In this document: positions 13,466-64,000 of the stretch, in pieces
Numbering within the stretch: position 1 is the stretch's first letter
How the letters are laid out: the number at the start of each line of letters is the position of its first letter
Origin: Tritonibacter multivorans
GTDB lineage: Bacteria; Pseudomonadota; Alphaproteobacteria; Rhodobacterales; Rhodobacteraceae
Length of the DNA: 64,000 nt
Assembly: GCF_001458415.1 (NCBI RefSeq)
Contig: NZ_CYSD01000012.1
Coordinates: forward strand, 186,001-250,000
Direction: 5' to 3'
Notes under the pieces: generated by a model
The model's input: the letters and a program-made list of their open reading frames with translations, nothing else
What the model was told of the DNA's origin: nothing
Database searches by the model: none
Position numbers and translations under genes: made by a program

Positions 13466-14773
13466 ATGAACATGCAACCCCAGCCGATCATTGCCCCGCC
13501 GCCGCCGCGTGGGCTGTCCGAGATGCAGCTGCCGCTGGTGATGATGCGGGATATCCTGCTAAAAACCCTGTTTCGCAAGAACCTTGCCATCGTCACCGAT
13601 ATCGCTGAGGCGATCTGCCTGCCTGTTTCGATCACCCAAGAGCTGGTGGATATGGCCCGCGGACAGAAACTGCTGGAGGCGACGGGTACGCTCAATGCCA
13701 ATTCCGGCAATGAAATGGGCTATCAGCTGACCGATGCGGGCAAAGCGCGCGCGCTGGATGCGCTGGCGCAGTCCGAATACTTCGGCGCGATGCCCGTGCC
13801 GCTGGCTGTCTACCGCGAACAGGTCAAACGCCAGTCGATCCGCAATATTATGGTGACGCGCCAGCAGCTGACCGGAGCGATGGGGCATCTGGTCCTGCCC
13901 GACACTCTGCTGGATCAACTTGGCCCGGCGGTTAGCGCCGGTCGATCCATTCTGATGTATGGCCCACCGGGCAACGGTAAATCTTCGATCTCGAACGGCA
14001 TTCGCGACGCGCTTGGCGACCATGTCTTTGTGCCCCGCGCATTGGAATATGCCGGGCAGGTGATCACGGTTTATGACCCGATTGTCCACAATGCCCTGCC
14101 CGAACCAGAGCAGGACCCCAATTCCCTGCGCAAACACCGCCCCTATGACGAACGCTATGTGCGTTGTGAACGCCCGACGGTTATCACCGGGGGGGAATTG
14201 TCGCTGGATATGCTTGATCTGGTGTATAACCCAACCGCGCGCACCTATCAGGCCTCGCTGCAGCTGAAATCCACCGGCGGCATCTTCATTGTCGACGACC
14301 TTGGCCGCCAGAAGGAACCCCCGCAGTCACTGGTGAACCGCTGGATTGTTCCGCTGGAAGAAAGCCGGGATATCCTTGCCCTGCAATCGGGCGAAAAATT
14401 CGAAGTGCCCTTTGACACGCTGGTGATCTTCTCCACCAACTTCCACCCCAACGAGATCTTTGACCAAGCGGCCCTGCGCCGGATCTTTTTCAAGATCAAG
14501 ATCGACGGTCCGAACCAGGAAAACTTCCTGAAGATCTTTGCCATGGTGGCCCGCAAAAAAGGCCTGCCGCTCGACGAGGCAGCACTGATCCATCTGTTGA
14601 AGGTGAAATACCCGACGATCGACAATATCTATGCGAATTACCAGCCGGTGTTCCTGATCGACCAGATGATCGCCATCTGCGAATTTGAAGGCATCCCCTA
14701 TCAGATGAGCCCCGACCTGATTGACCGCGCCTGGGCCAACATGTTCGTCAAAGACGAGCATATCGTGAAGTAG
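13466..14773 (+). CDS. AAA ATPase associated with the Tad locus
   Basis: 435-residue protein with an N-terminal winged-helix-like region (about 22-105) and an AAA-type ATPase domain containing Walker A GPPGNGKSS at 166-174 and a probable Walker B IFIVDDLG near 273. The late segment LVIFSTNFHPNEIFDQAALRR looks like sensor and arginine-finger regions of an AAA ring ATPase. It follows tadV by 125 bp on the same strand and has no conventional Tad name. Related ATPases beside tad genes are common in Rhodobacteraceae; the function is not established to my knowledge. A G7 run occurs inside the gene near 14189. Confidence 0.82.
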   Translation: MNMQPQPIIAPPPPRGLSEMQLPLVMMRDILLKTLFRKNLAIVTDIAEAICLPVSITQELVDMARGQKLLEATGTLNANSGNEMGYQLTDAGKARALDALAQSEYFGAMPVPLAVYREQVKRQSIRNIMVTRQQLTGAMGHLVLPDTLLDQLGPAVSAGRSILMYGPPGNGKSSISNGIRDALGDHVFVPRALEYAGQVITVYDPIVHNALPEPEQDPNSLRKHRPYDERYVRCERPTVITGGELSLDMLDLVYNPTARTYQASLQLKSTGGIFIVDDLGRQKEPPQSLVNRWIVPLEESRDILALQSGEKFEVPFDTLVIFSTNFHPNEIFDQAALRRIFFKIKIDGPNQENFLKIFAMVARKKGLPLDEAALIHLLKVKYPTIDNIYANYQPVFLIDQMIAICEFEGIPYQMSPDLIDRAWANMFVKDEHIVK

Positions 14774-14775
14774 AC

Positions 14776-14868
14776 CACCGCGCGCCAGCCGCAGGCGCTC
14801 CCGCCCGTCGTTCCATCATCAAAGAGGATGTCCTCCCGTTGGGCGTGGCACCGCGCTGGCGCGCGGTG
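14776..14868 (+). repeat. Dispersed structured intergenic element, copy A
   Basis: Begins 3 bp after the AAA ATPase stop. Outer arms CACCGCGCGCCAGC (14776-14789) and GCTGGCGCGCGGTG (14855-14868) are perfectly complementary. Inside are core 1 GCTCCCGCCCGTCG, a variable CATC/GATG hairpin, and core 2 CTCCCGTTGGGCGTGG. The right end can also fold alone as CACCGCGC-TGGC-GCGCGGTG. Other copies are at 39619, 59623 and 63513. Confidence 0.8.
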
Positions 14869-14946
14869 CAGGCGCATTTGGATCGCGTGTGCGCAATTCG
14901 ACGCTTTTCGTTTTCCGGCACGACCCAGTTGGACTAAACAGGGAAC

Positions 14947-39507: not shown

Positions 39508-39618
39508 GAGTTTCCTTTACGCCTGCAAAAGCCACGGCGCGAGAAAAGAATTGTACCAAATCACCCGCAGGGGCGCACAGACGCCCTGCGTTCGTGCAGA
39601 GGTCACGCCGCAATCGCA

Positions 39619-39738
39619 GGCTCTCCCGCCCGCCGTCCAAGCCCCCTTCGGGCACTCGGGCGGCCGTTGGGCATAGCGCCGCGCGCGCCCCTGCGGGGCG
39701 CGCGCGGCGCCGGTCGCTTCGGGCGAAGCCCGAAGCGA
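39619..39738 (+). repeat. Dispersed structured intergenic element, copy B (longest)
   Basis: Core 1 CTCTCCCGCCCGCCG and core 2 CCGTTGGGCATAG match the other copies. CCGCCCG (39627-39633) pairs with CGGGCGG (39657-39663). The right arm forms a perfect 16-bp hairpin (39676-39691 with 39695-39710, loop TGC), and a further perfect 11-bp hairpin TCGCTTCGGGC/GCCCGAAGCGA with loop GAA follows at 39714-39738. It lies between the priA stop and the MFS start, on the strand opposite to both genes. Confidence 0.75.
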
Positions 39739-39773
39739 AACCCCTGAAGCGCTGGGATGATGCTCCTCAAGCG

Positions 39774-59211: not shown

Positions 59212-59622
59212 ATGACCGATCATCCCCTCGCCCGGTTTCAGATCACCCGCAGTGAAATCTCTCGAGTTGTCGAACGCTTCTATGCGCGCGTGCGCGCTGA
59301 TGCGGTTCTGGGACCGGTGTTTGGTGCCCATGTTCAGAACTGGCCGGAACATGAAGAAAAGATCGCCGCCTTCTGGCGCAATGCAATCCTGCGCGAGCCA
59401 GGCTATGACGGGTTTCCCATGCGCGAACATCTGACGCGCCCCGATGTGAAGCCAGAGCATTTTCCGATCTGGCTGGGGCTGTTCCACGAGACCCTGCACG
59501 CGGAGCTGACCGAGCGCCAAGCGCTGCAATGGGGCGATCTGGCGGATAAGATTGGCGAAGGGTTCCGTGCAGGCGTTGAGAACGTCCGCCGTCCTGCGGA
59601 TCAACCACCCCGCCTGATCTGA
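59212..59622 (+). CDS. Group III truncated hemoglobin
   Basis: 136-residue 2-over-2 globin. Family-typical blocks are RVVERFYARVRADAVLGPVF (B helix and start of the distal region), NWPEHEEKIAAFWRN and KPEHFPIWLGLFHETLH, which carries the proximal His region. These proteins bind O2 or NO and often relate to nitric-oxide or low-oxygen life. The gene is divergent from ileS with a 233-bp gap; the repeat element C begins right at its stop. Confidence 0.9.
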   Translation: MTDHPLARFQITRSEISRVVERFYARVRADAVLGPVFGAHVQNWPEHEEKIAAFWRNAILREPGYDGFPMREHLTRPDVKPEHFPIWLGLFHETLHAELTERQALQWGDLADKIGEGFRAGVENVRRPADQPPRLI

Positions 59623-59717
59623 GCGCCGCACCACAAGCGGGGGGCTCCCGCCCGTCGAGCGGCCACTTGACAGTGGCCGTCTCCCGTTGGGCGTGGCGCC
59701 GCGCAAAAGCGCGGCGC
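59623..59717 (+). repeat. Dispersed structured intergenic element, copy C
   Basis: Outer arms GCGCCGC (59623-59629) and GCGGCGC (59711-59717). Core 1 GCTCCCGCCCGTCG, an inner hairpin GGCCAC-TTGACA-GTGGCC, and core 2 CTCCCGTTGGGCGTGG. The right end also folds alone as GCGCCGCGC-AAAA-GCGCGGCGC (59696-59717). It fills the whole gap between the convergent hemoglobin and ycjF-like genes. Confidence 0.8.
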
Positions 59718-59718
59718 G

Positions 59719-60720
59719 TCAGTTCTTGGGGCCGCTGTCCCGCGACACAAGGCCGGTCAGAGCGTTTTGGATCACCTTGCGGGTCGATGGTTTGGCGCGC
59801 GCCGAAAACGGCAAAGGTCGACAGACCTCCATCGCCGCAAGACCGACACGTGCGGTCAGCGCGCCATTGACCAGACCTTCGCCAAACCGGCGGGACAGTT
59901 TCGACAGCACAGAACCGCCAAGGATCGGCTCTAGCAGATCATCCCCCACCGCCATCGCACCGGTCGCCACCAAATGAGTGAACACCGCGCGGGTCAGCCG
60001 CCAAGAGCTGAAGAATCCCGAACGTCCGCCATAGATTTCCGCGATCCGGCGGATCATACGCAGCGAGGACAAGAGCGCTGCCACCACATCCGCCAGAGCC
60101 AGCGGCACCAGTGCTGTGACTGCCGCGACTTGACGGGCGGCCTGTTCGACCTCGGCCTGTGCCTGCCGATCAAGGGATGTCAGCAGAATATCCTCGGCCT
60201 GATCCAGCAGAGCATCTGCATCCAGGACTTCGGCCCGACGCTCTGACAGGCGCGCGCGCGCCCAGGCGAGGTCCTTTCGCGGCGCGTAAAACCGATCGAG
60301 GTCAGAGACAACTCGCCGGGCGCGATCCAGATCCTTGCGCCCCCCCTCCGCACGCTGTCGCAGCCCGTCTGTCCGCCGAAGCCGCGACAAGGCCGCCAGT
60401 TCACGCAGCCCGAACACCAGTGCAAGTCCCAGGAGCACCACAATCGCCGCAGCCACAGCCCAGCCGAGCAGCGGAATACGGGCAATAAGCGTGGTTGCAT
60501 AATCCCACGCTGCCAGCGACACCAACGTCCCCACAAGACCAAGCAAGACAGACCAGAACCAGCGGCCAAGTCCGGATCCCCCTTGCAGGCTGCGACGCCC
60601 TGCGTCCGCTGCCGCCTCCTGTTCTGGCGCGGTCTGCGGTTCCGGCACGGGCGGCGCATCCGCGACCGAAGGGACGGTTTTGCTATCCTCCAGATCAAAG
60701 ACGACAGGTTTTCGGCTCAT
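59719..60720 (-). CDS. YcjF family (TIGR01620/DUF697) membrane protein
   Basis: 333-residue inner-membrane protein with a disordered acidic N terminus, two hydrophobic helices at about 52-75 and 80-105, a coiled-coil region of Arg/Asp-rich helices (about 115-195), and a C-terminal DUF697-like part (LVPLALADVVAALLSSLRMIRRIAEIYGG, read in shorter blocks). The ATG at 60720 (AGGA upstream) overlaps the stop of the GNAT gene. Partner YcjX lies two genes upstream. Function is not established; the pair belongs to the phage-shock regulon in E. coli. Confidence 0.87.
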   Translation of the reverse strand: MSRKPVVFDLEDSKTVPSVADAPPVPEPQTAPEQEAAADAGRRSLQGGSGLGRWFWSVLLGLVGTLVSLAAWDYATTLIARIPLLGWAVAAAIVVLLGLALVFGLRELAALSRLRRTDGLRQRAEGGRKDLDRARRVVSDLDRFYAPRKDLAWARARLSERRAEVLDADALLDQAEDILLTSLDRQAQAEVEQAARQVAAVTALVPLALADVVAALLSSLRMIRRIAEIYGGRSGFFSSWRLTRAVFTHLVATGAMAVGDDLLEPILGGSVLSKLSRRFGEGLVNGALTARVGLAAMEVCRPLPFSARAKPSTRKVIQNALTGLVSRDSGPKN

Positions 60721-62735: not shown

Positions 62736-63512
62736 ATGCCCCGTATTGCCCTCAAAGTCGAATACAACGGAAAGCCCTTTGCCGGATGGCAACGGCAGAA
62801 AGATCAGCCCTCGGTTCAGGGCGCGATCGAGGATGCGCTGTGCAAACTGGAACCCGGCCCGCACACAATTGCGGCAGCCGGGCGCACCGACACAGGCGTG
62901 CATGGCCTGGGTCAGGTGGCGCATTGTGATTTGCAAAAAGAATGGGACCCATTCCGACTGAGCGAGGCGCTGAACCATCACCTGAAACCGCTGCCGGTGG
63001 CGATTGTCGACGCGGCGCGGGTAGACGAAGACTGGCACGCGCGGTTTACGGCGGTCGAGCGGCAATATCTGTTCCGCATTCTGATGCGCCGCGCGCCTGC
63101 AACCCACGACAAAGGTCAAGTCTGGCAGATCAACCATGCGCTGGACATCGAAGCCATGCAGGAAGGGGCCAACCACCTGCTGGGCTTGCATGATTTCACA
63201 ACATTCCGGTCGTCTATCTGCCAAGCGGCAAGCCCAGTGAAAACGCTGGACGAGCTGCGGATTGAACAGGTTCAGGGGCTCTCGGGGCCCGAGGTTCACT
63301 TTCACGTCCGTGCCCGTAGCTTCCTGCACAATCAGGTGCGCAGCTTTGTCGGCACGCTGGAACGTGTCGGAGCGGGCAGCTGGACACCCGACGACGTGCG
63401 CAGCGCGCTCGAGGCGCAGGATCGCGCCGCCTGTGGCCCGGTCTGCCCCGGACATGGGCTGTATCTGGCGCGCGTGGGCTATCCCGACCCCGTGTTCAAA
63501 ACCGACAGCTAA
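62736..63512 (+). CDS. truA: tRNA pseudouridine(38-40) synthase
   Basis: Makes pseudouridine in the tRNA anticodon stem-loop. The 258-residue protein has [12 protein letters not shown], the catalytic [12 protein letters not shown] with Asp52, the [12 protein letters not shown] region and [14 protein letters not shown], all typical. The start at 62736 has no strong Shine-Dalgarno, but no alternative fits the family N terminus ([12 protein letters not shown]). It is divergent from ycjX and followed immediately by repeat element D. Confidence 0.95.
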
Positions 63513-63599
63513 CCGCCGCGCTCGGGGGGCTCCCGCCCGTCGGCGGATCATCAAAGATGACCACCTTCCGTTGGGCCATGCGCCGCTGGCGCGGCGCGC
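63513..63599 (+). repeat. Dispersed structured intergenic element, copy D
   Basis: Starts at the base after the truA stop. Left arm CGCCGCGC (63514-63521) is complementary to GCGCGGCG (63589-63596). Core 1 GCTCCCGCCCGTCG, inner ATCATC/GATGA hairpin and core 2 TTCCGTTGGGCCATG. The right end also folds alone as GCGCCGC-TGGC-GCGGCGC (63580-63597). Confidence 0.78.
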
Positions 63600-63670
63600 C
63601 ACCGCGTGAAAGACACGTCAGGGTGCCACTGGGGCGGCCCGTCCGCAGCCGCAGGCGCAGGACCGGCCGA

Positions 63671-63698
63671 AAAAGCAACGGGGCCCGCAGGCCCCGTT
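63671..63698 (-). terminator. Rho-independent terminator of gcvP
   Basis: On the minus strand AACGGGGCC pairs with GGCCCCGTT across TGCG, followed by GCTTTTT. It starts 14 bases after the gcvP stop. Confidence 0.85.
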
Positions 63699-63711
63699 TC
63701 CTTTTGACAGT

Positions 63712-64000
63712 TTACTCCGCCGCCTCGGCATAGTCCTCCATCGGCGGGCAAATACAGACAAGGTTTCGATCCCCAAAGGCGTTGTCCACACGGTTCACCG
63801 GCGGCCAGTATTTATCCACACGGAAAGCACCCGGCGGGAAGCAGCCCTGTTCGCGGGAATACGGACGGTCCCATTCCCGCACCAGATCTTCCATCGTGTG
63901 CGGCGCGTTCTTCAGCGCATTATTGGCCGGGTCCACGTCCCCTGCCTCAATGGCTTTGACCTCATCGCGGATCGACAGCATCGCCTCAATGAAACGATCC
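63712..64000 (-). CDS. gcvP: Glycine dehydrogenase (decarboxylating) P protein, C-terminal part
   Basis: 3' end of the gene for the pyridoxal-phosphate P protein of the glycine cleavage system; the rest lies beyond the window edge. The visible residues start with [14 protein letters not shown] and run through [10 protein letters not shown] and [34 protein letters not shown], read in shorter blocks, the conserved end of GcvP. It would supply methylene-tetrahydrofolate, the same pool used by folD and fhs at 18-22 kb. Confidence 0.93.

Follow-up and report, generated by a model that had tools for sequence, protein, structure and literature searches.

A family of dispersed structured repeats that follow genes in Rhodobacterales was characterized, starting from four copies in a 64,000-nucleotide stretch of Tritonibacter multivorans DNA, which is referred to here as the window. 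The chances appear about even that these are REP/BIME-like repeats at the gene ends of Rhodobacterales, with no RAYT transposase detected, and that they form a boundary between transcription units and act at least partly as DNA hairpins.

The first-pass annotation of this DNA had listed four copies with shared cores and with an inner hairpin differing between them. Exact cores were indeed located at 14798, 39623, 59645 and 63530, all on the plus strand, and the hairpin differed between the window copies as described. The exact core pattern gave these four plus-strand matches in the 64-kb window and none in 100 shuffles (expected number 0). If the starts assigned in that annotation are used, a stop codon lies no more than 3 nt from the start of three copies, as it had stated; the exception, the copy at 39619, is antisense to both flanking minus-strand genes, after the priA stop codon and before an MFS gene. 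The model start of copy 1 lies 17 nt past the stop of the ORF 13466-14773, encoding an ATPase-like protein. Copy 3 is placed between an ORF with its stop at 59622 and a minus-strand DUF697 gene ending at 59719, and copy 4 between the tRNA pseudouridine synthase gene (truA, stop at 63512) and a minus-strand ORF ending at 63712. The names priA, MFS, tRNA pseudouridine synthase (truA), Lhr and DUF697 were based on Pfam. No Pfam match at E ≤ 1e-5 was obtained for the ORFs before copies 1 and 3 or for the minus-strand ORF after copy 4, which we take by eye to be an ATPase-like (MoxR) gene, a globin gene and gcvP, respectively. About 80 nt past copy 4, at 63674-63705, there is a separate GC-rich palindrome flanked by A and T runs, which has the look of a classical bidirectional terminator.

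Analysis of 16 own-genome copies with RNAalifold gave three helices. P1 is formed by core 1 (GCCCGTCG) and core 2 (CGTTGGGC) and has G.U and T.T inside it; P2 corresponds to the inner hairpin that varies between copies, and P3, a hairpin rich in GC, lies a few nucleotides 3' of core 2. The order within the unit is CTCCC, P1, P2, CCTCC and P3 (Table 1). The pairing of the two cores, the right arm as a hairpin of its own and a second type of unit (type II) were absent from the first-pass annotation, which had instead proposed covariation of each left arm with the right arm of the same copy. In a set of 204 copies, such complementarity was no better than chance: when the 45 nt before core 1 were compared with the 40 nt after core 2, the longest complementarity averaged 5.5 nt whether the pairs were real or swapped. 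In the window, copy 1 was an outlier with 14 nt, and the other copies had 6, 7 and 8 nt. Outer-arm covariation was rejected as a family feature by this swap test. The dispersed structured family with covariation was supported, but not its specific design with covarying outer arms.

Table 1. Coordinates of the window copies and their parts (R1, covariance model built from 10 own-genome copies)
Feature	Coordinates	Strand	Remark
Copy 1, whole type I element (model extent)	14790..14877	+	R1 91.6 bits, E 1.9e-15
Copy 1, core 1: CTCCC and 5' strand of P1 (14803-14810)	14797..14810	+	pairs with 14837-14844
Copy 1, P2 variable hairpin	14814..14830	+	
Copy 1, core 2: CCTCC and 3' strand of P1	14832..14844	+	
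Copy 1, P3 GC-rich hairpin	14848..14869	+	
Copy 1, left arm of the first-pass annotation	14776..14789	+	14 nt complementary to right side; not family-wide
Copy 2, long-P3 subfamily	39615..39719	+	exact cores; R1 24.2 bits, E 0.0098 for the window
Copy 2, long P3 hairpin	39676..39710	+	
Copy 2, extra hairpin P4	39715..39737	+	common to four other distinct own-genome copies
Copy 3, type I element, convergent genes	59637..59725	+	R1 80.2 bits, E 2.7e-13
Copy 3, P3 hairpin	59696..59717	+	
Copy 4, type I element, convergent genes	63522..63605	+	R1 66.8 bits, E 9.1e-11
Copy 4, P3 hairpin	63580..63597	+	

The annotation had proposed a covariance-model search as a check and had named a lack of significant covariation in a larger alignment as a refutation; the outcome of both spoke for the family. 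In 127 aligned copies, changes on both sides were found at every P2/P3 pair (15/15) and at 2/7 of the P1 pairs. Double-changed cells numbered 490 against a shuffled mean of 138, and pairing was kept in 93.7% of cells against 36-43% in slid versions, so covariation was far above both controls. This alignment was fitted to the covariance model; MAFFT alignments, which were not, agreed on the covariation. The sense G.U of P1 was nearly invariant (121 of 124 scored cells). These cells come from loci fetched by the exact-core pattern, and core conservation in the loci named here is thus a selection effect; P2 and P3 were unselected.

The search with R1 yielded further copies in the own genome (G000, 4.17 Mb) and in relatives. 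In G000 there were 45 matches at E ≤ 1 and 30 at E ≤ 0.001. A looser core pattern detected 16 copies there, and the reversed core pattern none. The single orientation noted for the four window copies did not extend to the whole genome, in which 12 of the 16 were forward and 4 reverse. On contig C12 of this genome, 7 of 8 exact-core copies had the same direction. At E ≤ 0.001, R1 matched 22 of 61 genomes, comprising all 18 of the same genus and 4 of 19 from other genera of the family; none of the 24 genomes from other families of the class was matched. In a wider draw of one genome for each genus of the family (248 with the own genome), at least 24 had matches at E ≤ 1e-5, which is a lower bound given the strict filters and the 17 scored candidates per genome. 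Among the matches listed (80 of at least 118 titles), named contigs belonged to Phaeobacter, Leisingera, Ruegeria, Tropicibacter, Tritonibacter, Falsiruegeria and Tropicimonas, and plasmids of Leisingera, Ruegeria sp. TM1040 and two Parasedimentitalea carried matches at E ≤ 1e-7.

Otherwise lone copies are often faced by the related type II unit (CTCCCGCGCCCG ... CGGCCTTGGGC, with its own P2 and P3), the two types being arranged tail to tail. They are considered related because R2, a model built from type II, also matches type I copies; for the same reason the R2 matches found in 17 of the 18 same-genus genomes are partly type I copies and do not count pure type II. In P1 of type II, G-C was exchanged for A-U in 5 of 17 sequences, with no mixed case. 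P3 was shared in 13 of the 25 type II units, namely those facing a type I core 2 within 50 nt. At one locus in four species, the composites measured 153-161 bp from CTCCC to GGGAG, that is, between inverted CTCCC ends. Pairs were oriented tail to tail in 34 cases and head to head in 1 (68:2 when both members are counted). The head-to-head pair consists of type I units overlapping at GGCGGGAGCTCCCGCC and is present in both of the species compared for retention below (L388 2001-2161 and L435 2001-2161); the other counted pairs are tail to tail. Subfamilies were also seen. A long P3 followed by a fourth hairpin (GGTCGCTTCGGGC..GCCCGAAGCGA) occurs at 39712-39740 of the window and at L006, L022, L048 and L049, in at least five distinct own-genome copies. 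Downstream of the ORF that lies before copy 3, G000 and G014 have a type I unit and G002 and G008 a type II-like unit at the same boundary (L368, L369, L376, L377); a weak match was also found there in G017.

The position relative to genes was consistent. R1 gave 217 distinct matches; an upstream neighbour was called for 206 of them, and in 170 of these it is a gene on the same strand, at a median distance of 22 nt from the stop codon to the model start. R1 and R2 together placed 276 elements in 203 gaps, of which 128 were convergent, 68 codirectional and 7 divergent; for comparison, 116 of 449 gaps of at least 90 nt were divergent in the loci of the R1 position analysis, element gaps included. 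In the codirectional gaps, the stop-proximal unit was sense in 52 and antisense in 16 (p=1.4e-5, a nominal value since the copies are interrelated, as with the other p-values). The gene caller was home-made; four annotated plasmid sites, each with an R1 match at E ≤ 1e-7, agreed with it. On plasmids of Leisingera and Parasedimentitalea, the element lies at a caspase-family/DUF4384 gene boundary, 23-28 nt past the stop (L519, L521, L522). Orientation by replication strand was rejected, as the strand bias in a GC-skew test of G002 was not significant (31:21, p=0.21).

Placement behind stop codons is what would be expected of an element acting in the 3' UTR of the sense RNA, where P3 would end or protect the mRNA and P1/P2 with the CTCCC strands would serve as a binding site for an RNA protein or as an sRNA sponge. 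The short distance to the stop codon, the excess of sense units in codirectional gaps and the near-invariant sense G.U of P1 are all in favour of such a role, which we regard as possible but clearly short of probable. Against it stands the kind of variation within the stems. In the 127 aligned copies, G.U occupied 21 P2/P3 cells as against 482 double changes in P2/P3. U-tract terminators from the same loci were used as a control, and their interior mispairs comprised 53 G.U and 16 A.C, as expected of RNA. In type I P2 this relation was reversed, with 10 G.U and 38 A.C, and a stricter count by eye, with at least three pairs outside the mispair, gave 5 and 19. Type I P3 had 12 G.U and 6 A.C, which was not significant and leaned to sense RNA; in type II, the G.U to A.C counts were 1 to 6 for P2 and 2 to 2 for P3. 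In this test, G008 loci were left out as orthologues and near-identical P2s were removed; both the test and the 127-copy covariation comprised model matches only. Between G002 and G008, Watson-Crick pairs had changed to G.U 11 times and to A.C 19 times, which did not differ from even. Considering the rarity of G.U in P2/P3 and the preference for A.C in P2 mispairs, the RNA reading implied by the first-pass annotation is doubtful.

The loops were also informative as to the strand. T..C tetraloops, which are GNNA on the complementary strand, made up 31 of 61 tetraloops in P2 and 32 of 61 in P3, compared with 2 of 43 at control gene ends, and GNNA in the sense direction never occurred among the P2/P3 tetraloops of the element. 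Loops of the form C(GNNA)G have an unusual stability in DNA. Among P3 triloops, GNA was present on the complement in 34 of 98 and in sense in 8 of 98. P2 triloops showed the opposite, with GNA in sense in 23 of 85 and on the complement in 11 of 85, which is against a complementary-strand fold. Taken together, the wobble and loop data speak against a structure of the sense RNA alone and in favour of a DNA hairpin, with P2 perhaps formed by the complementary strand.

The gene-end position and the GC-rich P3 could also be explained if the copies were plain intrinsic terminators with a common lineage-specific sequence. This is improbable. A U-tract is missing after P3, where the mean was 1.7 T in 9 nt and at least 4 T were present in only 23 of 183 copies, a regex-derived set that contains chance matches; this equally counts against a role of the sense RNA. 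The conserved cores and P1/P2 would be needless for termination, the P2 wobble pattern is opposite to that of U-tract terminators, and copy 4 has the separate palindrome between A/T runs further on. Gene ends that carry an element showed no depletion of U-tract terminators (9/36 vs 36/163 and 23/121 vs 20/74), another point against the sense-RNA role, and the idea that the element replaces classical terminators was rejected on this ground.

Retention was studied in two species about 84% identical, represented by G002 and G008. G002 had 52 R1 matches at about 45 sites, of which 40 were used, the five left out being weak matches. At 34 of the 40 loci, the sequence aligned to an element-bearing G008 locus with 79-88% identity; at three of these (L391, L399, L400) the element was not spanned by the alignment, and the only unit seen in G008 at L391 is on the minus strand. 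As to the six remaining loci, G008 has the element at four and not at one, and the sixth lies at a contig break. Therefore, the element was kept at 38 of 39 assessable sites. Over 49 units, identity between the two species was 93.9% in stems, 85.6% in unpaired parts and 77.6% in alignable flanks; some of the 15 double changes seen between them were counted twice, because shared P3 palindromes read both ways. The single empty site was too diverged for its boundaries to be read for target-site duplications. Among more distant congeners, the element was often absent: it followed truA in 1 of 17 genomes, the ATPase-like ORF in 8 of 18 and the ORF before copy 3 in 5 of 15; three of the last five were weak matches, and the two of the three that were read resemble type II. 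Since the element is missing from these three sites in such congeners, it may be concluded that it is dispensable there. The gaps are short where congeners lack it.

Such presence and absence, together with the short empty gaps, would suit a degenerate mobile repeat that is non-autonomous (MITE or REPIN-like) and has no host function; it would survive behind genes, where it is harmless, and its palindromes would be kept perfect by template switching. The composites with inverted CTCCC ends and the modular subfamilies would be in line with this origin, as would the nearly wobble-free covariation, for which template-switch perfection of palindromes is an alternative source. A repeat of this kind would not be expected to stay at nearly all assessable sites of the two species, nor to be more conserved than its alignable flanks with its unpaired parts included. 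Moreover, the Y1 (RAYT) transposase, PF01797, was absent from G000 and present in only 2 of the 18 same-genus genomes, the search having covered the Y1 family only, and mobilisation by RAYT was rejected since G000 has no Y1 gene. We hold this origin to be a tentative alternative that is rather less likely than a REP-like boundary element. Phage origin was rejected as well: among 80 R1-scored viral stretches, drawn from at least 120 matched by a loose pattern, two had matches at E ≤ 0.1 (0.024 and 0.07), both weak, a result that also counts against the mobile repeat.

The first-pass annotation knew of no named family with this design. At gathering score, none of 4227 Rfam families matched the window or eight relative loci, and at E ≤ 10 there was one weak and unrelated match; the kind of element, however, is known, as its placement is REP/BIME-like (available portion of PMC3733652). 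According to that portion, REPs lie between convergent and unidirectional ORFs near ORF 3' ends, some without a transposase, and head-head dimers, the head being the tag end, predominate in most REP families. In the present family, too, palindromes are scattered over the genome at gene 3' ends and occur in inverted pairs. It resembles the GTAG super-family with RAYT transposases (PMC3733652; also listed, PMC2817692) in its short palindromic repeats, tens of copies per genome, gene 3' ends, location between convergent or unidirectional ORFs and frequent inverted pairs. Unlike REP/BIME, its unit has two hairpins and a conserved paired core, and an unpaired GTAG tag is not a regular part of it. 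The linker between P1 and P3 consists of GTAG/GTGG in 34 of 204 copies, with the complement after P3 in 11 of those, and a looser scan (GTAG or GTGG with a stem of at least 6 bp, either strand) found 106 of 330 copies, a minority in both counts. Its pairs are joined P3 to P3, often sharing P3, and the REP head has no sure counterpart. CGTC-tagged REPs are alphaproteobacterial too, have no dedicated transposase known, form heterodimers in some families and are found at gene ends (same portion of PMC3733652). The letters CGTC are present in 228 of 330 copies, but the CGTC of core 1 lies inside P1, and the CGTC-REP design (CGTC/TGTC/CCTC unpaired, an AT-starting stem of 8-9 bp and a loop of 4-5 nt) was found in 0 of 330 copies, or 28 of 330 with any stem start. 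Considering the REP-like placement together with the failed tag tests, the two-hairpin unit and the lack of Y1, the family is regarded as REP-kind of a new form.

Other systems were less similar. The BOX elements of Streptococcus pneumoniae and similar repeats are likewise composites built of modules, in which the end modules are distinct and the middles vary; BOX is likened to the present element by this modular make-up and belongs to another phylum. The HRC-8-4 and uORFC-8-2 motifs (available part of PMC8632094) and the SAM/SAH riboswitch (available part of PMC2864571) are structured and confined to Rhodobacterales but tied to cco, cysS and metK, whereas the gene-end element follows unrelated genes. 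Recombination sites of the attC type, which act as single-stranded DNA folded from the bottom strand and are placed after stop codons, were also considered in view of GTTRRRY in 265 of 330 copies and of the tetraloop and P2 mispair signatures, which point to the complementary strand. As the partner box RYYYAAC precedes GTTRRRY in just 18 of 330 copies, leaving the boxes without their inverted arrangement, and the copies are scattered outside cassette arrays and stay put, this explanation is very improbable. No description of the family was found in the available parts of PMC4809877, PMC12306157, PMC3733652, PMC8632094 and PMC2864571, and relevant terms had a count of 0 in PMC2267715 and PMC11109978, within a literature search confined largely to the main text of openly available papers.

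If the reading as a REP-like boundary element is correct, the element would mark the boundary between transcription units. Its Watson-Crick palindromes would fold at the DNA level, or would be bound there by a candidate host protein, and a hairpin or cruciform may form where transcription converges; secondarily, P3 may close mRNA 3' ends. This reading draws on the position at gene ends, the tail-to-tail pairing, the covariation with its rare wobble pairs, the P2 mispairs, the T..C tetraloops and the conservation and retention between G002 and G008. The sense orientation after stop codons fits an RNA role as well, and template-switch repair of palindromes could be a selection-free cause of covariation limited to Watson-Crick pairs. 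A more specific version, which we put forward with still less confidence than either main alternative, is host-maintained DNA punctuation: a two-part (I/II) palindrome at gene ends, selected as a DNA hairpin, with P2 perhaps on the mRNA-complementary strand, and read by a putative Rhodobacterales protein that would insulate neighbouring transcription units.

With these findings, the ecologically important Roseobacter group gains a REP-like family with no RAYT detected and no earlier description found. They also provide a worked case in which covariation alone suggests RNA and the wobble test points elsewhere. Given its slow evolution, consistent placement and up to tens of copies per genome, the question of whether gene-end palindromes serve the host or merely survive there becomes testable by deletion.
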